Assembly: GCA_000349905.1 (NCBI GenBank)
Contig: KB722752.1
Location: forward strand, 389,697-453,696
Reading direction: 5' to 3'
Source of the DNA: Volvariella volvacea V23
Lineage: Eukaryota > Basidiomycota > Agaricomycetes > Agaricales > Pluteaceae
DNA: 64,000 nt
This document shows, in pieces, positions 37,481-64,000 of this stretch (position 1 is its first letter; each line of letters opens with the position of its first letter). The notes beneath the pieces were generated by a model that was not told the origin of the DNA, searched no databases, and worked only from the letters and a program-made list of their open reading frames with translations. The position numbers were made by a program, and so were the translations under genes.

Positions 37481-40400
37481 ATGTCTCTCCATTCCAAACC
37501 ACCCCCGGCCAACATTTTCGACGATGACGACGACGAGGGCTGGCAGGACATGGAGGTCGTCCGCGAGGACACCTCGCTCAGCGGGCTGGATGAAGAAGAT
37601 CAGAAGAAGTACCATTACATGCCGTCCGCCAAAGGCAAGAGTGCGGCCAACGCGACTGGCAGCATCTTGGATGTCGACGATCTGGGAAACGAATGGAGAA
37701 CCAAGGCCGATCAAAACGAGCGGGAGTATACCAGGCTCAGGATGAAGGAGGAGGACGAGTCCGATGAGGTCCATCTGCGGACCAAGTACCTGTTCGACGA
37801 AGACAAGGCGATGACGCCCCTCAGCCAGATGCAGGCCACAAAGAACCTGCTGACGGAGGCTCAGAGGATAGCATACGTCGGGTTGTGCGCGTTGGCCAGC
37901 CGAGAAATGTCGGAGAAGCTGAAGGCTACGCAGCGGAAGGAGTTGAAAGCCGCAGCAGCAAGCATGGATCTGTGGGCATTGAAGATTATGGGGAGATTGT
38001 ACTACCACATGGAACTCGAGACTCAAGGTGGGTTATCTACTGCCGTTCCCGCTATCTTCGCTGCTTCTGATTAACGATGTGGCTCACGCGACCCGAATCC
38101 CTTCTGATAGAGCAGAAGATGATTGAGAGCCTCGCTCTTCACGGCGTTCGGGCAGAAGACCTCGTACCTGCCCTGATGGCGACACATACCGTTGCAAACC
38201 CAGAATATGACCCAGAAGAGGCCAAGCGACAGGCTGCAGAGCGCCAGAACCAACCCGACCACCCAGACGATTTTGACGACGAGGCATCGTTGTCAGGACA
38301 AACGCTGGTATCGCCACCCACAACGTCATCTCCTCCCGCAAGCGCATCCTTCACGTCTATAACACCCAGCACAAGTGCCTCGTCCACAAAGACATTTCAA
38401 ACAACCACCAGAGTGCTCGAGGACACCACAACAGGTCTCATGCCTGGAGTCACGACTACACTATCGGCAGCTGACAAGGACGTTACCCTCGATATCAGAT
38501 GGACGGTGCTTTGTGATTTGTTTCTTATCCTCATTGCCGATAGCGTTTACGATGCACGCTCTAGGGTGCTGTTGGAGAACGTCGCGCTCAAGTTGGGCCT
38601 TGGGTGGCTGGACGTCGTGAGATTCGAGAGCCGTATCACGGAAGCTCTGGAGATACAAGAGGACGTTGAAAGAATGGAGAACGGGCAGATTGTAGAGGAT
38701 CGACGGAAGGCGGGAAAGAAGAGGCGGTATGTGATGATGGGTCTTGCAACACTAGGTGTGTAGCACAAATTTGTACCACTTCTAGTTCTTGTTCCTGATT
38801 CTGGTTGACAGGTGGTGGTTTGGTTATTGGGCTGTCTGCCGGGCTTTTAGCCCCGTTTATCGGGGCCGGTTTAGGCGCTGCCTTGACAGCCGCGGGTATT
38901 AGCGGCACCACAGGTTTCTTAGCTGGTGCTGGTGGTGCCGCTGTCATCACTACGGGTGGTGTCTTGACTGGTTCGGGGATTGCAGCGAAGGGCATGGCAA
39001 GACGCACACAGCAAGTCAGGGTATTCGACGTCCTCCCACTTCATAACAACAAACACGTGAATTGTATCCTCACAGTTCCTGGGTGCGTCTCATATTAATT
39101 TTATTCACTCAACGATTAACTCACAATAGGCACCGATAGATTTATGACAAGTATTCAAGACGATGTTCGGTTGCCTTTCAGCGTGCTTGACCCGGTTGTC
39201 GGCGATGTATTCAGCGTGCTATGGGAACCAGAGATGATCCGAGAGACTGGTGACGCTCTGAGGATTCTCACAACGGAAGTCCTTTCTCAAATCGGACAGA
39301 CCGTTCTTCAGGCAACAGTGATGACCGCGCTTATGAGCGCACTCCAATGGCCAATCAGTCAGTAGTCGATTTATCAATCCGTTTGTCCAGCGATGCTGAC
39401 GATTTTTCTAGTTCTTACAAAGCTAGGGTATCTAATCGACAACCCATGGAGTAACGCTCTCGACCGCGCTAAAGGCGCTGGCAAAGTCCTGGCCGACGTC
39501 CTCCTCCACCGAAACCTTGGTGTACGACCCATCACGCTCATCGGGTTCTCTCTCGGCGCACGAGTGATCTTCTATGCCCTCCTCGAACTCGCGAAACACA
39601 AAGCGTTCGGCATCGTTCAGGACGTCTTCATCCTGGGCACGACTGTCACAGCCTCCCAGCGTACCTGGTGTGAAGTCCGCTCTGTAGTCTCAGGGCGGTT
39701 TGTCAACGCCTACGCGAGGAACGATTGGGTTTTGAATTACCTGTTCAGGGCTACGAGTGGTGGAGTCGGGACTGTGGCGGGGCTGAGGCCCGTGAAGGAC
39801 GTGCCGGGGTTGGAGAATGTGGATGTGACAGATAAGATCTCTGGGCATATGAGCTATCGGACGTTTATGCCCCTTATCCTGGATCAGCTGGGGTTCCCTG
39901 TGTCGGCCGATTACTTTGATGAGCCCGAGGTGAGCTCCTACTGTGCTGTGAGATCTTCTGCGTGCTAATACGTTGTTTAGGAACCTGACTTTACGGAAGA
40001 TCGGATTGTGGTTCGGGAAGACGAGGCGGAAGAGAAGAAGGGCTGGTTCTCTTTCAAATCGAGTAAATCGACACCGCAGAAGCACGTCTCGAGGCCGCCG
40101 ACTGCGGCTAATTATCCACGGCTTTCGCAGCGGAAGACTTCTGATGCGGTGCCAGCACAGAGTCAAGAGAAGAAGTCGCCCGGTGCGGTGGAGGAGGATG
40201 AGGACTTGCCGCCGAGGTTGCCGACTTCTCAAAGTACGGGGGGTGCAAGTTCGAGACCGCACACGCCAAGACCGCAGACACCGTCAAAGGGTGGCGAAGA
40301 AGCTGCTCCTGCTGAGGGAGCAGCAGCGGATGCCCAGTCCACTGCCGAGGAGTTGCCCGCTCGTGCTGGGTTTAATTTTGCGGCGATTAAGGAGGTGCTG

Positions 40401-43270: not shown

Positions 43271-44721
43271 ATGAAGAGAGACCCTACGGTCGAAAGCCAG
43301 ATAGAGTCTATCCGGGCAGCTTTAACGGTGTCTCCTCCATATTGCTCTGGGACCGCAACGCTTGACGACCTCGGGGGACACTTGTTCTACCTTTGTCCTG
43401 GACAGGGAGACGAGTCCAAGTGAGCATTTTTCCGTGCTTACAATTCGTCCGGATTGTTCATCAGATTGCACTCCCACCCGGTCTCTATCTCTAGCTTCAT
43501 TAACCTCGCCAAAGCAAAGGAATCACAGCTTCAAGCTTTAACGGATGCCTGCCAACTCGCAACATTCGGCCTGAACAATCAAGACGTCTACGATGAAAGC
43601 TACCGCAAAGCACGAAAAATGGATACCACCCATTTCGTTACGAGATTTGACCCCGTAGAATGCGGGATTATGAATTTCGTGAAGGAGCAACTCCTCGATC
43701 CTGCTGATCACGACAAGGAAATCCGAGGAGAACTTTACAAGCTGAACGTTTATGGTCGGTGTACATGTCCTTCAGGCGTTGGTCCTAGCTTGACATAACA
43801 ACTGGTATTTTAGATAAAGGATCGTTCTTTAAACCCCATGTCGATACACCCAGGGGAAACGACATGTTCGGCTCTCTCGTCGTCGTCTTCCCAACACCCC
43901 ATCAAGGCGGCTCGCTCTTCCTCCGCCACCAAGGGAAAGAGTGGCGCGTTGACTCCAACCAACTCCTCTCAAAAACCTCAGAGCCATGTGTCGTGTTCAT
44001 CGCATTCTACAGCGACATCGAGCATGAAGTCCAAGTCGTCTCATCCGGCTACCGCGTCACGCTAACCTACAACCTCTACCACGGCGCCAGCCAACCGAGA
44101 TACTCAATGACCAAGGCAATCGACATCCGTATCCCCGATGAAGAACAGCTCTACTCCCTCATCTCGACGCTCATGGAAGACCGCACCAAGGTCCTTCCAA
44201 ACGGCGGGTATCTCGGCTTCGGATTGCAGCACAAATATCCGGTCCCTTACGACCGCAACCTCTCCAATGTCCTGCTACGCCGTCTCAAAGGTGTAGACGA
44301 GATCCTCCGCACGATCTGTCGCAGACTGTCGTACTCCACGTCTATCCAGCTGATCGCGGAAAACGACGAAATAATGCTTCCTTACGCGCCTGAGCTCAGC
44401 ACAGACGAGGAGATAACCGAGGATTGGGTTGACTACCTCTCTCACTGCCAGGTCGTCGTTCCGGTAGCTGGAAAGGAGAATATTAGTAATTGGAGAGACG
44501 ATTCGGACGGAGGCAAGGAGCTGGTGTGGGTTGTGCCTCCAGCTGGGGTGACGTATATTAAAGAGGATTATTTGCATTATGGGAATGAGGCGTCGGTCTT
44601 AACGTTTTATGGGGAAGTATGCCTCATCGCGAAGGTTCCTCCTCCGTTCAGAACTGATAGCGAAGAGGAATGCGATAATACTAGCAACGAATCGGAAGGG
44701 AGTGAGGATGAAGAGGAGTAA
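43271..44721 (+). CDS. 2OG-Fe(II) oxygenase, prolyl-4-hydroxylase-like
   Basis: This is an Fe(II)/2-oxoglutarate-dependent dioxygenase of a family widespread in basidiomycetes; its substrate is unknown. Exons 43271-43419, 43465-43754 and 43814-44721 join in phase to 448 residues. The iron ligands are H155 and D157 (KPHVDTPR) and H217 (DIEHEV). R227 (GYRVTLTYNLY) is the likely 2-oxoglutarate carboxylate ligand. The double-stranded beta-helix strand MFGSLVVVFPTPHQGGSL is typical. The C-terminus is acidic (SESEGSEDEEE-like). No signal peptide or membrane segment is seen. This intact gene is the best reference for two broken relatives at about 50.7-52.4 kb and 56.5-56.8 kb. Confidence 0.88.
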
Positions 44722-45027: not shown

Positions 45028-47075
45028 TCACACTGCATTAAGATCACTCCATCCATCACCCAAGCCCTCTCGAACAGTCCATCCTTTCCCGTCTAGCCAC
45101 CTCCAAACTCTTTCAATATCCATCTTCTCAACCTCCTCCGCACCACTCTTAACTTCGTCCAAAACATCTACGTTTCCTCTCTCTCCAACCAAAGCAAGAA
45201 CGCTCCATCCGACAACAATCATCCCTGGAGGTCTCTGATCGCCTACACTCTCTAGCGCTTTAACGATATCCTTCAAGGTCGAAGACACAACTCTCTGATC
45301 CGGCATCGTGGCCCTCTCGATGATCGCAATAGGCAAATGCGGTGGGTACGCTGGCCCCTCCCTCCCCTTCCCACCACCCGTCGAGGTCAAAACCTCAACC
45401 ACCCTCTCCAATCTCGCAACGCCCATCAAAATCACCAGCGTATTCTCCCTCTTGTATCCAGGAAGCTTGACCTCCTTCCCTCCCCTTCCAACGCCGGTGC
45501 ACACTACGAACGACTCGGCTACACCCCGTTGGGTGACGGGTATGCCTGCGAACGTGGGTCCTGCGAGGGCGGAGGATATGCCGGGGATGACGAGAGGCTC
45601 GAAGCCGTTTTGGCGGAAGTAGAGGATTTCTTCGCCGGCGCGGCCGTAGATTGATGGGTCGCCTTGTTTGAGCTGTTGAATGTGGTGGTGTATATGCGCA
45701 TATTCGGTGCAAGAAGACAAGGAAAAAGTACATATATTGAGTCCGTGGTGACGAAGTGGACAGTCAGAGAACTTACGCGGACGACAGTCAGCCCCTTCTG
45801 CGCAGCCTCGACGGCTTCAACCATCATCTCCATCTGAGCTCCCTCGGCGTTTCCAGGGAACTTTTTTGCAATTTTGACTTGGACGTGCGATGGTATCAGG
45901 TTGAGAACTTCAGCCGGGACGAGCTTATCTGAAAGAACCAGCTGCGCTTGTGTCGTCAAGACAGTGTGCGCGGATTGGGCGAGCAGACCAGGATGGCCTG
46001 GTCCCGAGCCGATCAAGATAATTCGGCCTCGACGTGGTGGGGATGGGGAAGGTGGGGAAAGGGTGATTGAATGTATCGAGTGGAGTGGGTGCGTGACCCC
46101 CTCTTGGGTGGCACCTGCTGTATGACTAGCACTGGGACCTCGGGGAGAATGAAGAAGCTCTCCAGAGAGCGCTTGCTCCATGTCTTCGTCTGTCATGTTC
46201 GCGAGTTTGGGTATGGGCCAGTATTCGCTCACTTGAGCGACCCATTTTATCCGTCGTTTCAGACTCTCCGTCTCGGTTTCACTATTGGAACGGGAGGGAA
46301 CGGGTCTATTTGGGGTCGCTACCGCGCTGTCTTCGTTGTTTTCGTCGAATTGGACTGCGTCGTCTTCTATGTAGCCATTCTCCTCAACTGCTCCTCCCCC
46401 TTGTATTGTCGACCTCGTTCTCTCTCTTTCCTTTGCTAACGATCTCATCTTTCCAACCTGCTGAACTGCTACACCGACCTCCTTTGGTAGCTTGGCCACT
46501 ATCTCCCTCGTCACCCTGCCTGCTAGTCTACACCCTTGTCCGTTCGTCGTAACACCAATTTGAAGTGGCGTTTTTGCACCAGTTGTAGGATTTGTGAATC
46601 GATGAGTTGATGTGAATGAGAAGTCGCAAAGCTCCGGGATATCGGTCACATTAACCAAGATATTGCGAGAGCTACATATGTCGTAGATCTGTTGCGCTGA
46701 TTCGCGTTTGCGTCGTGTGGGGTGGGTACTCTGAGCGAGGAGCGTATCGGTTACGCAGACGAATCTAATGCTGGGGCTTGAGCATAGATAGGCACCAAAG
46801 GCTGCCAGACCATCACCCGAAGATTGGGTAGAGGAAGTGGGTGCGGGTAGCTGATCCCAGCTGAGGAGCTGAACCTGTCCTTGTTCTGCCCGCCATCGCA
46901 ACTCGTCGCATATGGTCTCGCTGTCTCTTGTCAAAACAACGACCTGGGAGTTCGCTTCAAGAGCCGCATATGCTCGAGAAGCTGCAAGTGTTCCTGAGCC
47001 GATAATAACGGTCGTTTTTGAGGCCAGTCGGAAGGAAAGCAAGAGAGATGCGCCTCGTTGAGGGTCAGGATACAT
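45028..47075 (-). CDS. MET1: Siroheme synthase (uroporphyrinogen-III C-methyltransferase)
   Basis: It makes precorrin-2 from uroporphyrinogen III using S-adenosylmethionine. That leads to siroheme, the cofactor of sulfite and nitrite reductase. Exons 45777-47075 and 45028-45672 join in phase to 647 residues. The N-terminal half holds a Rossmann-like segment (TVIIGSGTLAASRAYAAL) as in precorrin-2 dehydrogenase/ferrochelatase (CysG N-terminus, Met8). The C-terminal half (from about residue 340) is a full SAM-methyltransferase, with IGSGPGHPGLL, DKLVPAEVL and the RLKQGDPSIYGR loop split by the intron. This order resembles yeast Met1 and bacterial CysG. Whether the N-terminal domain still oxidises precorrin-2 is uncertain. 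The ATG is the first in frame; the frame extends 15 nt upstream only with a TTG. Confidence 0.88.
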
Positions 47076-47597
47076 CGTGGGTGGGAGCAAAACGCGAGGA
47101 GTCGAAGCTGAGGAGCATTTCGTCGTTTATGATATTAACGAGACTTGCGCCACGATAAGCAATTTGAATTCGGAATTGCCACTGTCAGTATGGCGCAAGG
47201 GTGTGGCGGTTTCTAAAAATTTCATCGGCGTAACTCGCCGGCGCCTAATCGGACTTTCGGAGTGACTGGCGCTTGCCGAACGGCTGCCCGGCCCATGCTC
47301 GGGGTTCCCAGCAACCTTTGTGCAGCGAGAACAGGTTTTCAGCTCTCCAAGCCTATTGTCTACAGCGCGTGTTGTCGGGTTAGTTGAACTTGGGTTGCAA
47401 TTGTCGATGAGCCTCACGATAGTTGCGACGCAGGCTTCCTTTCTTGAGCTCAACGCCGCACCTCTATTGTGTGCCTGTCGCGTATAAGGCAGAAGATGAG
47501 ACGATGTATAGTATTAATCTTCACTACACCCAGCTCCACAAATCATAGCCTTCAAGCTCTCGCCCAAACACCTCAACTACACCTTCTGTGATTACCC
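47076..47597. other. Divergent promoter region
   Basis: This lies between the siroheme synthase start (-) and a small hypothetical gene (+). A minus-strand open frame of 108 codons here shows no motif and is treated as chance. Confidence 0.5.
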
Positions 47598-50089: not shown

Positions 50090-50522
50090 ATGTCTCAACC
50101 CCCTCAGCCTATTTCATCAAGTGAAAACGTTGAGCGTACAGTGAAGCCAAATCCTACACACAGTACAGGTATATACTATTCTAATATCCTTGACACTGCA
50201 TTCGACTTATGAATCACTACCAACAATTAAATCAGCCCCAACAGGCGAAGCAAAAGCAACAGACAATAACTCACAATCTCAGAAAAAGCCACTTTCTGGA
50301 ATTGAAGACGAAGGCGAGGCAATTCAAGGGCACGGGCCACCAAATGCTGGTAAACCAGACGCCGAAATTCAAGCGAAACGTGGCTTGCGCCGCGAAGGGG
50401 CCATTCTTATCGATCCTAAAACCGGTAAACCAGACGCCGAAATTCAAGCGAAACGTGGCTTGCGCCGCGAAGGGGCCATTTCTATCGATCCTAAAACCGG
50501 AATGATTACACCCAGTAAATGA
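50090..50522 (+). CDS. Small tandem-repeat hypothetical protein
   Basis: Exons 50090-50168 and 50236-50522 join in phase to 121 residues. The protein is hydrophilic. After a Ser/Gln-rich start it holds a 25-residue unit, beginning GKPDAEIQAKRGLRREGAI and closing IDPKT, twice in immediate succession, then ends GMITPSK. The repeat carries charged residues typical of a short amphipathic helix. No known domain was recognised. A TATA box is present upstream. Confidence 0.6.
50349..50498. repeat. 75-bp tandem duplication inside a coding exon
   Basis: Two head-to-tail copies (50349-50423 and 50424-50498) differ at only two adjacent bases (ctt versus tct). The unit is a multiple of three, so the frame is kept. 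Confidence 0.95.
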
Positions 50523-50695: not shown

Positions 50696-52358
50696 CTAGA
50701 GGCTCTGGGCCCCGGTGTGTGCATGATAAGAACGCGCCTCCCCATAAAAATACTGCAGCATCGTCTCATTCCCATACGCCAAATACGGTGCCTCATACGC
50801 TAAGCCAATCGCGCCATCTGGATATCCCACTCTCAAATTCTCTTTGAAACGTGGAATCTGGGACGGTGAGGGTGAAAATGGTACACCGGTCCTCATATCC
50901 TTCATCGTCTTCGAAGAGCAGGTAAATCATGATGTCTATTTTGAGGTCGTTCAATATTTTGTTGAGCATCGCGTCTCGACCTTTGAGCTGGTATTTAAGA
51001 GCTGAGGATAGGCTAATTTCCACGTTGGCCCGCTCGAGAGGGTATTTGTGTTGGAGGCCGAAGCCGAGGTACCCGCCATTTGGGAGGAATTCAGTACGGT
51101 GGAAGAGAAGGGTGCGGAGGAATGATCAGAGCTCTTGTTCGTCTGGATTTTTGAGGGACTGAGGGATAGGAACCGGTCGGCTGAAGCGCTTGCTCCTCTC
51201 CCAATAGAGGTTGTAGGTTAGAGTGACTCGATAACTCGAGTCAACAGTTTTGACCTCGTATTTTATGTCGCTGTAGAAAGCGACAAACGCGGCACTTTAT
51301 TGCTCGATGTTTGAGAGAAGTTAGGAGGAATCGAATTTGAATTCTTTTCCTTTATGGCGGAGGATGTCGGATTATCCTCTGAGTTTAATACTGACGACCC
51401 ATGCGTTGTATATGCTCGTCCCTCGATATTCCGTCCGTACTTACTGCTTACTTGTTCAGATGATCATTTCTTCCCCCTTTTAGATAAAATAACTGATATC
51501 TTGTGCTCACACATTCGTCATCACTCCCAATACCTCGGAGTATCGTATGGAACGTTCTAGCTACTTTTTAGGTGCAGAAACCGTATATAAAGTGTCTGTA
51601 AATCTCGTCCAAATCCTCATCCTCGTCTGTCTCTTCCATCTGACCCCTGTCCTGAACTACACACAAATACACCAAAACAACTCCGAGGTGCGTCACCGCA
51701 TCCTCTGCGAAACTCACCGCTTCAACAGAGGATGAGGACACCTCCTTGATGGGGGGTCGAGAATACGATAACGAGAAAGCTGAACATGAATCCTCCTCTT
51801 GTGGTGTCTAGATGAGCCTTGAAGAATGATCCAGTTCAAGAATGATCCAGTATCTAAAGTTCCTCGTTCTCTAATCAAGGAAAGGGAAAGGCAGAACTGC
51901 GTACAATAAAGATTCAGCTTGCAGAGCTCCGCTCAGACAGTCCTGGGGTGAGTAAAATTATTTCCTGATTTCCCCTCGATGATGCGAATAATGCCGAGAG
52001 AGGCTGGTTCAAACTTTGGTGAGAAACTATCGGCATCCATTTGACACGATTTGCGATAGGTTTTATCATATACATTTCGATCGTTTCGCTCAAAATTTGC
52101 CGGAGAACAGGCATTTGTAAGAGCTCTCGACTCGTCTGTAGTTGCCTGACCAAGATCGATGAATTTGACATATTTCGTGGTGATAGTATCGTAACGAGCG
52201 TCGATTGTTGCTTACCTGACTTGACCTGATGCGCTGCGGTAGTATAACTAACCGCCAGAATTTCCCAGGTTAACTGTACCAGTATAGTACGGTAGAGGGT
52301 TGTCGAGAAGGTCGCGGATGGGCTTGAGACGCTGTTCACTAACTTCGTCAAGGGACAT
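50696..52358 (-). pseudogene. Broken 2OG-Fe(II) oxygenase copy
   Basis: This is homologous to the intact gene at 43.3-44.7 kb over its whole length. The N-terminal part (from ATG 52358) keeps LLDNPLPYYTGTVNLGNSGG and then hits a stop. The exon 2 counterpart (about 52190-51950) keeps TYRKSCQMDAD. Exon 3 starts near 51890 with ELCKLNLY, and GSFFKAHLDTTRG keeps the HxD. Lesions include several in-frame stops, a 16-nt tandem duplication at 51819-51850, and a 361-bp insertion. The distal iron-binding His is replaced by Tyr (DIKYEV). The C-terminal part runs to 50696. It cannot make an active enzyme. Confidence 0.85.
51367..51727. mobile_element. 361-bp insertion with 7-bp target-site duplication
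   Basis: Homology to the intact oxygenase exon stops at 51728 and resumes at 51366 (GGVLI then LRHKGKEF). The 7-mer GAGGATG flanks the extra DNA at 51360-51366 and 51728-51734, as left by transposition. No terminal inverted repeat or coding capacity was seen, so it would be a non-autonomous element, a solo relic or a repair insert. Confidence 0.5.
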
Positions 52359-52845
52359 TGTGATGTGCTAGGGCGTTTTTTAGGTCCTGAATATGCGGTA
52401 TGCATGTATATCGGAACTAATCCGAGTCAGGAGGTCTGTACGGTCACGACTAGGACTTATTTCTCTCACATGCAGGCCTACGGATGTAGGCGGGTAAATG
52501 AAGTGTCTGTATAGAGAGAGCTCCTTGCTTTCGCATTTGTAAGCTCAGGATGCAGGGGTCAGGAAGACTGACACTCTTGAATTTTCCTTTGGACGCCTTA
52601 CTCCTTACCGCTTCCATGTATAGTAGCACGTCCTTCATGAGCGCATTTTCTTGATTTGGATTACGAATGTAATTAAGCAGCCCTGCTACTTAGGTACACC
52701 ATGAGGGGGATTAATATACACAAAATCAAACAATTACTTCCTCATACGATTTCGAGATAACTGGAAAGACCTCGTAATGTTGTCCGAAGGTGATCTCAGC
52801 AATCGACCCCTGATGTTGATGTCTGCACATATTCAAGCATGATAA
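52035..52845. repeat. Segmental duplication, copy A
   Basis: This is the same orientation and order as 56545-57329. It contains the 5' part of a broken 2OG oxygenase, its upstream region, and the last about 100 bases of an F-box gene coding frame (ending SYEEVIV stop). The portion 52582-52845 differs from copy B at about four positions, whereas the rest has drifted clearly more, with indels. Confidence 0.85.
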
Positions 52846-53789
52846 CCCTGTGTCACTCCCTCCCGAAGGTGAAGTTGAGTGAGCCGGTGTATTCTAGCAG
52901 CTTTTGGGATGAAAGATTGCTTCAGAGCTTTTGCCCGTAACGAGGTCACTGCCATCATAGATTTACAATCTCGTGCCCGAAAGATATGGGACTCCACTAC
53001 CCTCTGCATTGTCAGTACCATTACAGTCTTCACAATTCCAGCAATGCCGTTATACAACTCAGCATTCACAAATTAGTCTTTTACTTATTCTGGACAGGAC
53101 GTAGCCATACACGTCCCAAGTCCATTCTAATTGAATTTCAGGGCTACAAGATTATAACCCGGTGAGTTGGGTATTCAAGCCGAATCACAACCTGTGCAAG
53201 TATATATGCTCTCCCCTCTTGTCCCACCTCAAGCTCGTCTCTCGCCTTCAGCACAGGCATCGATTATCATAGTCATGGCAGTTTATCCGCCCAAAATCTG
53301 CAATTCCAGAACTTCAGACTAGCAGACAGTCAAGCACGCATAGCAATTGGTGTGTTGATGCGTCGCATGGCAGAATTATGTCCTCTTTATTGTGTTGTGG
53401 GAGAAACAAAATCTCGCCACGCCACGTGACAAACGAGGCGCAGGCGGCGCAATATCGCCAGTAACACTACTTCAACCCCAACTACATGTACGCTCCCCCT
53501 TCCTTTATCTCGAAATTGATGGTTCTTCCCTCAAAGCTCAAATCCTCCCTGTGAAACTCCTCTCGACGTGAGGCCTATGGAGACCCAGAGGTGGCCTTCG
53601 AAGCCAATGGAAGTACACATGTACCACACTACCTGTAAGTCCAGTAACTGCAGCAAAGGTAGCGATTTAGTTTAAACCAGTACGAACGACGCTTCTAGTT
53701 CCTCTCATAGGAGATTCCCTTAGTGAGTTCATTTCACCGCGCCTCGTCAGCAAGTGGGTGAACTTCAAACATTGTGTACCTGCAGTGCG
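52846..53789. other. Rearranged intergenic region upstream of Argonaute-like gene
   Basis: It begins at the breakpoint of duplication copy A. Positions around 52857-52900 resemble the 3' end of the small gene at 47.6-48.1 kb, which suggests a further decayed fragment. A tatatat motif at about 53.2 kb and a 15-codon frame follow. No complete gene was recognised. The 5' end of the Argonaute-like gene might extend into this stretch. Confidence 0.4.
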
Positions 53790-56399
53790 ATGTGGCGACC
53801 AAGACCTGTCCCTCCATTGAGCATGCCTATCAATTTAGGACTATATGATTTTTACCACCCTCACTCCCCAGAACTATGCCTACCATCATCTGCGATGACT
53901 AACGAACCTGTACAGGTGTATACGAACTGCTTTCCGATCCAAATGGATGACGGTATCACATATTACGTCTACAAAGTAGAAATGAGGCTCGCAGGGAGTT
54001 ATGCTGAAGGCTCTCAGCCCGCTGAATTCTCTCAACCTACCAAGGGCGCCCAACTTGCTTGTAGCACGGAGTCTGCCATGCGCTCTCCTGCTGTCTCTCA
54101 AATAAAGCGTCTAGTATTCCAAAGCCTGGAGGCCTTACCATGCTGGGAATAGCGTGGTCTCAAAGGGAATGTCGTTCATGACGGTGCCACAAAGCTTATC
54201 AGTCTAAAAAGATTAGACGGGCCTTTAGTATTTTCTGTCCCCTTCCAGGAAGAGGCTCATGGATCAAGAAAAGGCGAAACGGTGTACTACACAGTCGAGC
54301 TATTGTTAACCAACGAAGTGCATACAGCAGAATTAAAGGAGTGAGGCCCCTTCACTTCTTGCTTGGTTTGTCTTCTCATTTCGCATAGATATTTGGCAGG
54401 CAGGCGCGACCAGAGAGATGCCGTCGCACTGGCACTCAGTACCATTCTGGCCGTAATAACAAGAGCCCGGAACCCAATTGTCATAAACCGCAACAGGGTC
54501 TCCTTTTCATCCCAGGAAACGGCGCCAATGTCACTAAATGGAGGGCTTGAAGCAGGGGAAGGGTTGGATTGGGACACTCAGACTGTGCACGCGCAAGTAA
54601 TGCTGAACATAGACGGTACCAAGCTTCGAGCTGGTAGTAAGCTTATAGAGAGATTCGGTCTACGTGTTGTCAAAGAAATGACTCTTGCTCGAGGTCTCGT
54701 CCTCGCTCCACCATGCCTTCACTATGGGAGAGCTCAAGTTACAATCGATAGGAACGGGCGATGGCGTCTTCCACAAATAGTCAATTTTACTCAGCCAGCA
54801 ACACTCGCAACATGGGGAATAGTCATTGTCGACGGTGATAATACTATGCCGCGAGGGGAGGAATGACGCGATCGTCACGAGCGTATGGTCAGCTGATGTC
54901 ACACATTCGAGGCATGACAGGAGCTCTTCCATTGTCTAGGTATGAGAATCGAATGCGATCCCCTGATCAAAATCGCGACCATTCTTCCTAAGCAGGAAGA
55001 TCACACACGTAGGGACGCAATTGAGAAAATTGTACAAGCCGCATCCAGATTTAAAGGGATACCTAATCTCATCGTCTTTCTCCTGGTGAATCGCGATAAG
55101 GCTATTTATACAGGCATCAAGTACAAATATGAATATGAGGGAGACGTGCGTAAGTTATGAGTCCCTGTGCGGGTGTTTGCTATACTAAAATTTAAATCTA
55201 GTTACCGCCTGCTTCCAAGTTTCCAAGCTAAAAAGTCATAATGCTACCTGCTTGATGGGTTTTGCGATGAAGATCAATGCAAAACTTGGTGGAATAAAGT
55301 AAGTTCAGTGACTTAAACGCCCGTTCTGCTAACGATCTGTGACAGTCGAACGGTGTCACTTACTGAGCACTTTGGCGACGCAGTCATGGTAGTCGGCATC
55401 ACTCTTAGATATCCCGGTCCAAGAAGTATTAGCGAAGCACCTACGATTGTAAATGTAGTGGCCAGTGGGGACTCCAGGTTGTCCCAGTATTATGCCAGCG
55501 TGGGTATTCAAGGCCGCACTCACGAGGTGAGTGCATATCTTTCTTGCGCCATATGATACTGATTGTATTAAAGGCTGTATTACAGCTGGAAGAGATGCTT
55601 GACTGCAGGTTGACTGCCTTTTACCAGCAGAATGGCAAGTACCCGCAGAGCATTGTCTTCTATTGCCATAACGTACGTGATGTGTGTCAATTGTTTAACA
55701 TAAATTCGTGATTTGGTGACATACTCTAATCATGAAAATAGACAGATAATCAGGGCATCTTTCAAATTGAGTTTCCAGACATCCAGAGGGCCTTTATCCG
55801 TGTTAGGGACAGGATAAATTCCTTATATGATCCCCGCTGCACGTATATTCTTTCAGTAAGTACTAAATACCGAGCGTTCTCTGTATTTTGTTACTAGCTT
55901 ATCGCAGGATCGACTTGACCCCACGCGATTTTTTTCAACCAGCACTCTTTCGAACAAGAATTGTCTACCGGGCACAGTTATCGATGAGGTCTTCACGCGT
56001 TCTGCGGATGACTTTTTCTTGCTATGTTAGGCATTGTTTATTTCCTTCTGTTCTTTGATTCTAATTTGCAACGACCCAGCTCATGCTTCTACTCAGGGAA
56101 CAGCACGTCCTACCCACTACATTGTTCTTTTGAAGCCCGAAAATGTTCCCCTGAATGAGGTGCAGGCACTGACCTACCGCCTCTGTTACATACCGGCTGC
56201 GGCTAATAGTGCTGTCTCCGTGCCAGCTCCAGTTTATTATGCAGAGTTGGCTGCAAAACGCGGCCAGTGTTATATTTATCCCTTCTACCTAGGTGGACAG
56301 AACTCAAATAAAGACGAGAATGCAACGCAGTTCATAACTAATAGATGGAGAGGAGGTCCAGATAGCATAGCATTGCGCGAAACTATGTTTTATCTTTAA
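53790..56399 (+). pseudogene. PAZ-less, slicer-dead Argonaute-like gene with in-frame stop
   Basis: Argonautes bind small RNAs for silencing. Exons 53790-54340, 54389-54834, 54940-55149, 55202-55298, 55346-55526, 55586-55672, 55742-55855, 55908-56025 and 56080-56399 join in phase to 707 codons, ending MFYL as in true Argonautes. An N-domain (VQVYTNCFPIQ), a DUF1785 linker (GGLEAG, VMLNID), linker 2 (FGLRVVKEM, GLVLAPPCLHYG), Mid (KINAKLGG) and PIWI (QGTARPTHYIVLL, APVYYAELAAKRG) are recognisable. The PAZ domain is missing: linker 1 runs into linker 2 within about 15 residues. Catalytic positions are T454, H523 and E657 instead of Asp, Asp and His/Asp; E495 may match the Glu finger. Codon 121 (54150-54152) is TAG; a 39-nt in-frame intron could remove it but would be unusually short. 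The exon 2-3 join is uncertain: reading on gives TGA at 54864. It is either a decaying gene or a strange functional one. Confidence 0.75.
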
Positions 56400-56529: not shown

Positions 56530-56828
56530 TGCTTCACTATAGACACTTCGATCGTTTCGCCCAAAAGTTGCCGGAGAACAGGCATCTGTAGAGCTCTCAA
56601 CCCGGCTGTAGTTCCTTGACTAAGATTGATGAATCTGACATATTTCGTGATAATAGTATCGTGACGAGCGTCGATTGTTGCTTACCCGACTTGATAAAAT
56701 GCGCCGCAGTAGCATAGCTGACCTCCAGAATTTCCCAGATTGACTGCACCGGTACAGTACGGTGGAGGGTTGTCGAGTAAGTCACGGATAGACTTCAAAT
56801 GCTGTTCACTAACTGCATCCAAGAGCAT
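56530..56828 (-). pseudogene. Truncated 2OG-Fe(II) oxygenase copy
   Basis: The first exon reads as in the intact family (ATG at 56828, LLDNPPPYCTGAVNLGNSGG). Part of exon 2 follows (FINLSQGTT, then SPATFGRNDRSVYSEA after a frameshift). Homology stops near 56545, before the HxD iron site, so the copy is inactive. It lies in copy B of the segmental duplication, upstream-to-downstream as in copy A. Confidence 0.75.
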
Positions 56829-57329
56829 TGTAATGTGTGAGGGCGAACTTGTAGGTCTTGAGCATGCGGTAGGCATACATATCGGAATTCAGAGTCAGGA
56901 GTCCGTACCACGACTATGACTTATGCCTCTGAGACATCGACTCATGAAGCTTGAAGGCGGGTGAACGGCGTAACTCCTGGCTGTGAAGTGAGAGTTCCTA
57001 GCTTTCGCATTCCACTGATCGTGTAAGCTAAGGAGGCAGGGATCAAAAAGACTGACACTCCTAAAATTTCCTTTGGACGCCTTACTCCTTACCGCTTCCA
57101 TGTATAGTAGCACGTCCTTCATGAGCGCATTTTCTTGATTTGGATTACGAATGTAATTAAGCAGCCCTGCTACTTAGGTACACCATGAGGGGGATTAATA
57201 TACACAAAATCAAACAATTACTTCCTCATACGATTTCGAGATAACTGGAAAGACCTCGTAATGTTGTCCGAAGGTGATCTCAGCAATTGACCCCTGCTGT
57301 TGATGTCTGCACATATTGAAGCGTGATAA
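56545..57329. repeat. Segmental duplication, copy B
   Basis: This is the partner of 52035-52845 in direct orientation. Here the right end is the genuine 3' end of the intact F-box gene (57210-60105), so this locus is probably the donor and copy A the derivative. Confidence 0.85.
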
Positions 57330-60105
57330 GCAAATCAGAAACGAGGCAGATGAGCACTTTTTACAGCGGGGGTTCACGTATATGCGAAATGCGTACATCG
57401 TCTCCCAATGACTTCGTAGTTGGCTAAGGTTATAAATCTCGGACTCCGGAACGCATGAGGCACAACGGTACAAATTCCCATCTGTATCAGGACGAGGGAA
57501 GGATTCTGCCCTTCTATACGCCCTCTCTTCCCTTGGGTAATAGACCATATCTTCGTAAAGAACTGGTTCAGGGATACTATGACTGTCGATTATATTATAT
57601 GACGTCTCGGTGTCGTTGTTCACTGAAAGGAGGAAGCATAAATAGCCCACTCACCTGCTTTCAAGATGGAGGCGGACATCACCCTGACTGTGACAGAAAT
57701 AGTTGGCACAGTGATTGCATGCCCAGACTGGACCTTGTGCCAGAGCTGTTGACGGCGACATTTCTCGATTTTTGGCGTACGCTTCTGCTTGTTGGGTTAA
57801 CAAATGCAACCTCAGCACGCTATGGCTCGAGTCGTCTTCGTCAAACTCTTCTGCGTGTCCGACCTGCGAGTCACATTTTAAACCAACTCTTACGAGCGAT
57901 CATAGCGATCAACGTACCAACTCTCGCCAAGTTAGTGCTTGTACTGTATCTACGCCATCCATTCTGGATCCATTTCCATTCCAACATAATCCGCTGCAGT
58001 TGCCACAAACAAATCTTGCATCAACTGCGTCCAAATGTTCGATCGTCGTTTCTGGTGGGAAGTCCAACAATTTCAGTATACTCTCAACAACATCTGATCC
58101 CCTATATGACCAAACAATTCCTCGACGTCCGCGTCGGAATGCAAATACGCAGTTTATGTGGTATTTCAGCTCGTCCCAACCAATGAGGCACAGTGCAAAC
58201 GTCCGAAAACTGGGACGTTTGGAACTCTTGCAGGCAAAGCAAGTAAAAACGCTAGTTGGAGAATGGTGGATCCTGTGTTCACGCGATTGCGAGCTTTCCC
58301 CTCTATATGGAAGCCTAGACATGAAGAACTCCTTCCTTTTGCCTGCCCATCCTAAGCATCTCTTTCGCAACTCATCATTTCCAGAGAGGCCTATTGTGAC
58401 TTGGCCGTACTTTGCGTGATCTTCGAGGGTCTGTGTAATTGGATCCCAAGTATGCACTTCTTCCCAAGTTGGTGTGGCCCAGTCAAATTGTGGTTTGACG
58501 TCAAGCTTTAGAGATATCTTGCAGCGCAGCAGGCTCTTAAAAAATTCCTGTAAAAGTTTGTGATCTTCTGCTTTGCGCCGCTCCACTATTTCTTCAATTC
58601 GCGACAGGACCTTTATGAGGACTTGCAACTTGGTTAGCAGAAAACGATGTATGGAGGAAGGCTATAATACCTCGCTTTGAAAATCTTGGAATCTCCCCAT
58701 TCCGGTGCCATTTATAGACTGTATCACGAATGAGTACAAGGTCATTCCTTCTCCTGAAAAAACTGGCTCCGGGCGTGAAATCAGAACCATATCTGGATGA
58801 GAACAATGTTTGCACTCACAATTTAAGGATACGAGTGCGAGTTTTCTCGATAGTATTCGTGAACAAGCTGTATTGAGCTTCCAGCCAGGATTTACACATC
58901 AAATTATGCTGATTGACTTCGGTAAATCATTGGAATACGGAAGAGTGGTAAGAACTTACCTCTGCAAGCTCACGACACCGTTTAATATAGCCCTCCATAA
59001 AATCTTCGAGGGTTGGCTCACTTTTCCCACCCGGATGTGCACTCCCATTTAACGATTTGTCCTGTCTGCGAAACCTCTCGAGTTTATAATGCAATATATT
59101 GACATCTGCACGTCTCCAGCGACCAGAAGCAGTACCAGATGCGCCAATGTCCGAGTTCAACTCCCAACTGGCTAGTGTCGTGGTCATTTAGTAGGATTTA
59201 TGCGAGAAATAAATATGCGAGAAATAAATTTGCCTACCACGACGGTATGTCATAGGTAAAAGTGTCGCAATACATTCACTAGGCAACTCTTCTCTAGTCA
59301 TCAAGCTACGGGCACCACTTGAGTTGTGACCTCCTCTGTAGAATAGATATCACCTTTTTTTCAAGCACGCATTACAATATCTTCGGTGCAGTGCCCAATC
59401 TGGTTGTGCCGCATACTTCTTACATCGCTATCGGCAGATCCCTGTGCTCAGACTTCAGTGTCACATAAAAACAGATGAGAACATACATCACAAATAGGCT
59501 CCCCAAACAACAGATCTGCCCATCTGTGATGGGTCAAATTGGGAGGACATGGCGGCATTTTCGCGTCCTGCCAAGCCCTTCTCCACATACCACTGGAAGT
59601 AGGTGATGATAGTGCATCCTGAAGTGTACAAGACGCAATAAAGAGATTCCAGAGTTCGAGTGGATGGAGATGTGATGCTACCTAATCATCAGTTAGGTCG
59701 TCGTTCGAAAAGTGGACAAAACCTCGCATCACACCTCGAGTATGATGTCGATGGGTAGTTCAGGAAGCCTTGACAGTGATCCCCGTTTTGTCCTTTGCGA
59801 TTTCCGTCGAAGCGTGCTTCGAACAGCTATTCTGATCAAATTCTCTGTCGGCCATGGAACGCATAAATCAAGCAATGGAATGGGCGTCATAACCAACACT
59901 CACTATCTTGAGGATAATACTCTCTCAGCTGGAGCTTGCGTCCGACATCCAACAGAGGTCTAAACCTCCTTCTACCATAGTCGATGTTTGCCGATTGAAA
60001 GAAGGGGAGCTCAGATAGCAAGCCGGGTCCTAGGCTCTCTTTGACCCATATTTCACCCGCAGTAGACTTGAAATCTGCGAGCGAATGAAAAGGAAGATTA
60101 TCCAT
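57210..60105 (-). CDS. F-box protein with C-terminal zinc-finger-like region
   Basis: This is a likely SCF ubiquitin-ligase adaptor of a large Agaricomycete family. Eleven minus-strand exons join in phase: 59904-60105, 59735-59844, 59487-59681, 59354-59427, 59238-59293, 58960-59171, 58820-58908, 58671-58792, 57918-58621, 57655-57863 and 57210-57582 (781 residues). The F-box is at about residues 91-125 (LSRLPELPIDIILE, HLHPLELWNLFIASC). It is followed by family hallmarks MWRRAWQDAKMPPCPP, a cysteine pair motif (CKKYAAQPDW, RRYCNACLKK), a helical middle part, then DARFVCGNCSG, ALTWRELV and WACNHCANYF, which look like paired Zn-binding knuckles. No lesion was seen. The 3' end lies in segmental duplication copy B. 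An intron near the 3' end could shorten the tail. Confidence 0.8.
59200..59229. repeat. 15-bp tandem duplication in an intron
   Basis: The unit atgcgagaaataaat is present twice, exactly, inside the 66-nt intron 59172-59237 of the F-box gene. Confidence 0.85.
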
Positions 60106-61988: not shown

Positions 61989-63432
61989 TTACAAGCCACC
62001 GCCATTCAGGATATATTCGATTGCGGAGTGAACGTTCCCTCCTGTGGCGAGCAGGGCTCGGACATTTTGCGACGCGTTGGTGAAACCCATATCTTGTAAT
62101 TGCTTGGAAATAAATAATGAGATTAGCCTAGCAACGCGTCGCTAGGTGTAATGTACATACCTGGAGCTGCACTTGGAATCGCTCTTCCGGTGGCCGAGTG
62201 TCGGATGGTGTTGGAGCAACAGGTGGTAACCCGAACCCAAAGGGATTCATACCAAACAATGCGGAAGGATCGAGTGGTGGAGGTGAGCCTGCACCACCAG
62301 CACCTGCAGCACCAGTTGGAGGTGGAGCAAAGAGGTTGAACGGCGGAGGCGTCGCGTTTGTGCCCGTCGCATTACCACCAGCGGGATTGGTATTGTTGGC
62401 ATTCGTTCCAGTCGTATTAGGCGCACCAGGCGCAGGGAATCCAAAAGGAGGAGCACCGAATGGACTGCCAAATGGACCTCCTGCTCCTAATCCTGATGCA
62501 CCTTGAAAAGCGTGGGCCATTTGCAGCATCTGTCGCAGACGTTCAGGGTTGGAGCTGTCCAGCCGAAATAGGAAAACGGATCAGGACTTGATAATCGCGA
62601 GGAATATGCCAGAAGCTACGTACATCAACTCCCGGAATTGCTCGCTCTGCATCGCCGCGCGTACTTGGGGACCCATGCCGGCGAGTTGAGGGTTGGATGC
62701 AATGACCTGATCTATGATCGCAGGGTTGGACATCATGGAGGACATTTGTTGAAGGAATTGGGGCGAATTCATCATCGATGTAAACTGCCATAAATTGAAT
62801 GGGGGGACCAGGCGCCGAGGTGACAATTGACTCACCATATTAGGATCGTTGGTATTGACGCCAAGATCTGCGAACGGGTTGAATCCAGCCAAAGCTCCAT
62901 AACCCAGATGACTGTTCAATTGTGTTAATGGGTCGTGGGGATTCTGACCGGCCTGCATCGTCGGAAGCTGTTGTGGAGTCGATGACTGCTGTGAAGTACT
63001 GCCACTTGCACGAGCAGCGCCTTTGACCATGTGAATCGTGTGCGAGGCCTGAATCTTGTACGTGGCAAGAGTGTCATCGTCCTGTGAAGGAAGATGTGAG
63101 ATGTGAGCTTCGCGGTGGCACAAGGTCGCTGCGCATGTTGACTTGCCTTTAGAACACGCCCTACACGAGTGAGAACGGATAAGGAGGATAAGGAGGGCGC
63201 GATAGGTGAGTCTCGAACCTGAATAGATCAATCTCTGTCGTCCAGCCTCGACATCTGATTTCGCTGCAATGGCCTGCTTGAGCTCCAACACTGTCTTGTC
63301 CGTCGTGATGGATATTTGAAGCTTGAGCTCATTGGGGCCTACGCTCTGCATGAGCAATGGATTCGAATGTTGTTGCAAGCCCTTACCTTTGATGTTGATT
63401 TGGATTTCGGGGGCAACAGCCTCGTCAGACAT
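61989..63432 (-). CDS. DSK2: Ubiquilin/Dsk2 ubiquitin-receptor shuttle protein
   Basis: It carries ubiquitinated substrates to the proteasome: the N-terminal UBL binds the proteasome and the C-terminal UBA binds ubiquitin. Minus-strand exons 63219-63432, 63147-63160, 62836-63081, 62624-62784, 62161-62554 and 61989-62102 join in phase to 380 residues. The UBL lies at about residues 25-100 (LELKQAIAAKSDVEAGRQRL, IYSGRVLKDDDTLATYKI). STI1-type helices follow (FTSMMNSPQFLQQMSSMMSN, NPERLRQMLQMAHAF), then a Gly/Pro/Asn-rich linker and a C-terminal UBA (LQDMGFTNASQNVRALLATG, AIEYIL). Exon 2 has just 14 nt and is followed by a GC-AG intron with the textbook AAG/GCAAGT donor. Length and order match yeast Dsk2 (373 residues). 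Confidence 0.93.
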
Positions 63433-64000
63433 AGTGGTGAAGGGCAGAGTAAGTGTTTGTCTGTGTTTACCATCGCCTTGGATTATGGTATCGTCGAGGC
63501 ACGTGCGAGGTCTGCCGTGCCACCTAATACAGAGGCCGTGGCACCGCGTTCGAGCATCAGCGTGGACAGAGACGGCGGCAAAATGTGAGCACAAGAGACA
63601 CTTATTAGCTGGCAAGAGCTCGGAGAAGCGGACACGCTGTAGGCAAACACCGACCTGCGCCTGATCCATTTTATATCGGTATGTAATTAAGGCAAAATGA
63701 AAGCAAGGACATAAATGTTTAGACTCTTGTGGAGTTTGTTGGAAGGCGGATCAATAGGACTTTTTGCTACCCACGTCGCTGATTTCACCAAGGTGCGTTT
63801 CCAGTGCGTTGCTAATTTTTGACGAGCTCACGATAAAAAGGGTTCCAAATTAAATTATTTTAATATAAGAGAAGAGTTAGGAGACGCAGGGAAGACTCTA
63901 CTGACCCTTGTCTTCGATGCGGGTTCAAAGCGGGCGGTCGCGCTGGTGTGGCGCCTATTTATAAGTATGTTTTCCCAGATTTCCCATATGTCCAAGCACG
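63433..64000. other. Upstream region of DSK2, window end
   Basis: This presumably contains the DSK2 promoter. An AT-rich stretch lies near 63.85 kb. An open minus-strand stretch at 63.9-64.0 kb might belong to a gene beyond the window, but nothing is recognisable. Confidence 0.4.

Follow-up and report, generated by a model that had tools for sequence, protein, structure and literature searches.

A Volvariella volvacea Argonaute gene with in-frame stops and no PAZ, and two open-framed paralogues that also lack both core catalytic aspartates

Gene model and in-frame stops

The stretch analysed here (the window) comprises 64,000 nucleotides (nt) of the Volvariella volvacea V23 genome (contig C17, 389697-453696) and contains an Argonaute-related gene, which was compared with its relatives in the genome searched (35.4 Mb, 54 contigs). 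The coding span of 53790-56399 is correct, with an uncertain start codon. The spliced model, built on homology and splice signals, consists of eight exons joined in frame, which comprise 742 codons followed by a final TAA, and its seven introns are all of the GT-AG type and 47-69 nt in length (Table 1). A preliminary description, made from the letters of this DNA, had recognised an Argonaute relative whose exon joins gave a continuous protein. The relationship was borne out: human AGO1 (4kre_A) matched model residues 269-702 with an E value of 5.9e-36 in an alignment running from linker 2 to PIWI, and Pfam matched both the PIWI domain (Piwi, 2.1e-47, with X placed at the stops) and the N domain (ArgoN, 3.5e-11, 44.2 bits against a cut-off of 30.9). 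The continuity was not, since the model that follows homology contains four in-frame stops, namely one TAG, which lay unreported inside the described span and interrupts the N domain, and three TGA codons within 54 bases at the start of Mid. The TAG site reads CWE*RGLKGN, and the canonical paralogue L019 reads DWTRLGLKGN, with a coding codon inside an exon.

The closest protein among 5.8 billion sequences searched was P0001 (AX16_009983 of V. volvacea WC 439, 481 residues), and it was the only close one among the best 120 of 212 matches to the window gene. The WC 439 annotation, which is a gene prediction, contains only this 481-residue piece, starting downstream of the TAG and skipping a stretch of Mid, as would be expected if both lesions were also present in WC 439. 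Five in-frame GT-AG pairs lie around the TGA cluster, and the one that fits the WC 439 annotation defines a putative intron of 105 nt, whose use would reduce the number of in-frame stops from four to one. The preliminary description seems to have spliced out the same stretch, because its residue numbers are 35 lower than those of our model, which corresponds to exactly 105 nt. No frame of the stretch was significantly similar, in shuffle tests, to the two nearest paralogues, L024 and L022 (P 0.30-0.98), or to 21 canonical targets (median P 0.44-0.70), and intron, frameshift and decay are therefore indistinguishable there. Two compensating frameshifts in Mid were favoured by the spliced alignment with L022 and the 105-nt intron by the alignments with L024 and L019; neither is claimed.

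Table 1. Features of the Argonaute gene and of its flanks (positions in the window)
Feature	Position	Strand	Basis
N-domain exon (ArgoN) with in-frame TAG, start codon uncertain	53790..54340	+	model; ArgoN 3.5e-11 over model residues 40-193
In-frame TAG stop in N domain	54150..54152	+	spliced model; comparison with L019
Exon running from the remaining N domain into linker 1, over the PAZ deletion junction and linker 2, into Mid	54389..55149	+	model
ATG, start in the WC 439 annotation (481-residue P0001)	54528..54530	+	P0001 residue 1 at C17:444224
Junction of linkers 1 and 2 (MLNID, 13 residues, FGLRV), PAZ missing	54600..54668	+	linker spacing against 13 others
Mid stretch with TGA at 54864-54866, 54894-54896 and 54915-54917; putative 105-nt intron per WC 439	54835..54939	+	GT-AG pair listing; annotation
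Mid exon with guide 5'-end pocket, KINAKLGG	55202..55298	+	model
PIWI exon, first catalytic Asp to Thr (GITLRYP), Glu finger kept	55346..55526	+	model; alignment
PIWI exon, second core Asp to His (FYCHN)	55586..55672	+	model; alignment
PIWI exon	55742..55855	+	model
PIWI exon	55908..56025	+	model
Final PIWI exon, with Glu (YYAE) as last ligand and a C-terminus (MFYL, TAA) like that of relatives	56080..56399	+	model; alignment
Left copy of direct repeat flanking the Argonaute gene	52068..52837		two copies found in genome
Right copy of flanking direct repeat	56539..57321		two copies found in genome

Loss of the PAZ domain

As had been proposed from the letters, PAZ is missing within a single exon. 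Only 13 residues separate MLNID of linker 1 from FGLRV of linker 2, against 138-182 in 13 other Argonautes (seven paralogue models and six others), and none of 23 conserved PAZ columns is kept. The suggested profile check agreed with this: Piwi was found, and the spliced model had no Pfam PAZ match at E <= 0.1, nor did the locus have one in the exon-by-exon scan of the genome. Of the linker domains, ArgoL2 was weak (E 0.0091, 16.6 bits against a cut-off of 33.3) and ArgoL1 had no Pfam match in the spliced model.

The genome yielded eight PIWI loci, and PAZ matched at four of them in the exon-by-exon scan, which may miss PAZ in intron-rich genes such as L025. PAZ likewise had no match at E <= 0.1 in L022 or in P0121, the allele of L024, as opposed to an E value of 1.5e-19 in the canonical P0212. 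These two paralogues carry a PAZ remnant, because 138 (L024) and 154 (L022) residues lie between their linkers and 10 and 6 of the 23 PAZ columns are kept.

Catalytic tetrad and guide pocket

The tetrad of the window gene reads T-E-H-E, owing to the changes of GADVTHP to GITLRYP and of FYRDG to FYCHN and to the Glu of YYAE at the last position. In the alignment the loss of both core Asp residues is certain; the Glu finger is kept, as the preliminary description had it, and the change of the last ligand to Glu is conservative, so that its claim of a wholly lost tetrad held for the two core Asp residues only. The predicted protein does not carry a slicer-competent DEDD or DEDH tetrad. The paralogues have changed at the same sites, L024 (C5:1163662) to N-K-H-K and L022 (C5:1385492) to S-E-Y-D, whereas the three Asp residues are retained at the other five PIWI loci. 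Among 119 homologues, taken from the best 120 of 203 matches to L024 with its own strain allele excluded and P0212 of V. volvacea included, the first and the last Asp were each retained in 118, the second Asp in 116 and the Glu in all 119. The Glu-finger column holds V and G in L020 and L021, two canonical-looking loci 72% identical to each other, which may be a misalignment.

The features of Mid related to binding of the guide 5' end were described correctly: the Y, K, K, K and Arg of the pocket formed by Mid and PIWI, which we take to hold the 5' phosphate of the guide, are retained in the window gene, consistent with predicted guide binding, and are retained in L024 and L022 as well. The pocket Gln position is Ala in the window gene; it is Val in L019, P0124 and P0142, the three canonical mushroom rows compared, and Gln in P0004 and P0002.

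Paralogues and phylogeny

On contig C5, L022 lies at about 1.385 Mb and L024 at about 1.163 Mb, and both frames are open to ordinary C-termini once introns are placed; a frameshift in the first L022 model was accounted for by a 49-nt intron. The L019 model holds one stop, presumably from a misplaced intron, since the annotated protein of its allele P0212 has 963 residues. In a tree of 38 rows, all of them eukaryotic, the five rows of the window gene, L022 and L024 formed one side of a branch (100/98, with a long-branch warning), and the three genes adjoined the L019-type agaricomycete Argonaute group, a position that fits descent from eukaryotic Argonautes. The phylogeny asked for in the preliminary description thus placed the gene next to that group, together with L022 and L024 and under the same warning. 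Among 250 conserved gap-free columns all three genes deviated at 63, to the same residue at 11 of these, and the window gene shared further derived residues with L022 only at 12, with L024 only at 5 and with L019 at 3. The window gene as a direct duplicate of L019 was rejected (p-AU 0.029), and its placement as sister of L022 alone was not (p 0.42).

The defects are thus not peculiar to this copy, because two open-framed paralogues also lack the core Asp residues and a detectable PAZ. It therefore seems that this fungus has maintained non-slicing Argonautes as coding genes and that this copy decayed later; the earlier suggestion of a PAZ-less, slicer-dead Argonaute as a retained type of gene may hold for the two paralogues and less probably for the copy with in-frame stops. 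Of the 119 homologues that were listed with L024 as query, at 31-34% identity to it, 118 had a Pfam PAZ, the exception being P0234. The preliminary description had named full-length relatives together with neutral evolution of this copy as grounds against it; the listed homologues do carry PAZ, but in the nearest paralogues Pfam detects none, and, judged by the C-terminal part, any neutral phase would be recent only. Non-slicing members of the group in other species did not stand out among the matches listed in the searches with L024, with the window gene and by alignment, of which all need shared words, two scored only 7995 candidates and the alignment search returned six. The lineage was found here only in V. 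volvacea.

Constraint, decay and rival explanations

The last 374 codons of the window gene are free of stops, and the preceding part holds all four. In simulations of neutral substitution, which covered this clean C-terminal part, picked after it had been seen, and which counted substitutions and not insertions or deletions, 5.6% of 1000 runs remained stop-free with 0.08 changes per site and 2.5% with 0.10, and with 0.20 every run had acquired a stop. Identity of the window gene with L024 was 0.48, 0.53 and 0.34 at first, second and third codon positions, the third being near random. Because of the 374 stop-free codons, neutral drift appears short relative to the divergence, which suggests coding constraint over most of the gene's separate history. 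Most of the loss at the catalytic site and in PAZ, of a kind also seen in the intact-looking paralogues, would then fall within the time of constraint.

We judge it probable, at about 0.6, that the window gene is the most reduced copy of a non-slicing Argonaute lineage and a recent pseudogene. From the tetrads, the PAZ deletion, the stops, the paralogues and their grouping, all read directly from the sequences, we infer the past function, the order of events and the present inactivity as follows. Duplication of a canonical mushroom-family Argonaute with a DEDD tetrad would have come first, and the duplicates would have lost both core catalytic Asp residues while PAZ eroded, the frames and the guide 5'-end pocket being retained. 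The duplicates probably act, or acted, as non-cleaving guide binders, in silencing, scaffolding or competition for small RNA without slicing. The window copy may then have lost its remaining PAZ by an in-frame deletion, and with a recent nonsense codon in the N domain and the stop cluster in Mid it would now most likely be a pseudogene, so that the passing suggestion of a decaying gene, which had been offered last, is the likeliest present state of this copy in view of its stops.

Several observations weigh against this reading. The C-terminal half is clean, the 105-nt intron would remove the three TGAs and leave only the TAG, and P0001 differs from the window gene at just 2 of 477 aligned residues, so a MID-PIWI protein may still be made at the locus; between the strains, L024 differs at 8 of 722 residues (some of them probably at the cut end of P0121) and L019 at 3 of 819, numbers too small for a comparison among the genes. 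The after-the-fact choice of the simulated part and its restriction to substitutions count on the same side. The tree has very long branches, that of the window gene measuring 6.4 changes per column, with the grouping under the long-branch warning, and plain identity (34% with L022, 32% with L024, 35% with L019) does not reveal the grouping. Finally, erosion is not limited to the catalytic sites and all three genes are broadly changed, because only about half of 119 conserved PIWI columns are kept (62 in the window gene, 61 in L022 and 66 in L024, with 115 in L019).

The rival that survives best, which we consider unlikely though deserving of attention, is a living gene for an N-terminally truncated MID-PIWI protein of 481 residues, starting at 54528 and using the 105-nt Mid intron, which would bind the 5' end of a guide without PAZ or slicing and be an analogue in layout of the short Argonautes of prokaryotes. 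It has the near identity and the clean half just described in its favour, but P0001 is itself a gene prediction, the intron is longer than any of the seven others (47-69 nt) and covers a position that the L019, L022 and L024 models place within an exon, and the first 36 residues were modelled under pLDDT 50. A good fold would be expected anyway, because 32 other Argonautes were in the folding alignment. The bolder version is doubtful: a V. volvacea lineage that left slicing and PAZ anchoring behind and still loads guides, in which the locus makes the 481-residue protein as a eukaryotic short Argonaute of independent origin, competing with or regulating canonical Argonautes. A living protein of this kind, if true, would be the more interesting case.

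It is improbable that the stops are errors of assembly or sequencing and that the Argonaute, though lacking PAZ, is otherwise intact in the order N-L1-L2-Mid-PIWI. The WC 439 annotation, made independently, starts past the TAG and skips the Mid stretch, as would be expected if both lesions were there too. Least credible of all is a complete and expressed gene from whose transcript a further intron takes out the N-domain TAG as well. Seven in-frame GT-AG pairs, 57-120 nt long, do enclose that codon, and the donors of L022 (GTAACT, GTAGCT) are not much better, but all seven lack G at the fifth base of the donor, L019, L022 and L024 are modelled without an intron at this position, and such splicing would delete residues aligning with the L019 N domain.

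Relation to known Argonautes

Prokaryotic short Argonautes consist of MID and PIWI without PAZ and are catalytically dead. The resemblance to them noted earlier is one of layout, and a MID-PIWI-only layout is true only of the predicted truncated form P0001; the window gene is a eukaryotic Argonaute by descent and retains N-domain sequence upstream. A partner gene of the APAZ-effector kind was not recognised in a Pfam scan of eight neighbouring open reading frames (ORFs), which are single exons or pieces, four belonging to ordinary families and four having no match.

Canonical agaricomycete Argonautes, such as P0212 (AX16_002966) and the VvAgo1 subfamily, share the domain order save PAZ and, by modelling, the fold with the window gene, but they keep PAZ and DEDD, in the present alignments and Pfam scan as well as in PMC7522536, and the window gene lacks both. 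The Leishmania PIWI-like protein is likewise a eukaryotic Argonaute relative without PAZ, but it is reported with its DDH motif kept (PMC3528672), and its loss of PAZ is a separate event. L022 and L024 (P0121, AX16_004281 of WC 439) are like the window gene in the lost core Asp residues, the absent Pfam PAZ match and the retained pocket, and unlike it in their open frames and PAZ remnant, as opposed to its four stops.

The InterProScan survey of V. volvacea V23 gave five Ago genes, with a full DEDD tetrad in VvAgo1 (PMC7522536), as compared with the eight PIWI loci found here. funRNA defines Argonautes by PAZ and PIWI and reports good conservation in fungi for the first two residues of the catalytic site (PMC4290597). 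Surveys like it cannot see such genes because PAZ is demanded, and three genes of one mushroom depart from the conservation stated there. PAZ-less, slicer-dead mushroom Argonautes were not found in the open-licence literature by titles and abstracts among the matches listed. The intact-looking L022 and L024 offer a testable example of Argonautes that possibly function with neither slicing nor a normal PAZ and are the better subjects for experiments, and the window copy shows how far such reduction can go.

Flanking sequence and neighbouring genes

The gene is flanked by direct repeats of about 0.77 kb (Table 1), pieces of which are 82-96% identical. Minus-strand ORFs in both repeats (52726-52893 and 57210-57650) have a common C-terminal stretch, which makes local duplication of part of a neighbouring gene likely. 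Farther upstream, a 75-base unit occurs twice in tandem at 50340-50489 with 92% identity, and its length, a multiple of three, makes it possibly coding. Pfam assigned neighbouring ORFs to DUF726 (39366-39968), 2OG-Fe(II) oxygenase (43789-44721), sirohaem synthase/methylase (45519-47126) and a ubiquitin-like family (62581-63750).
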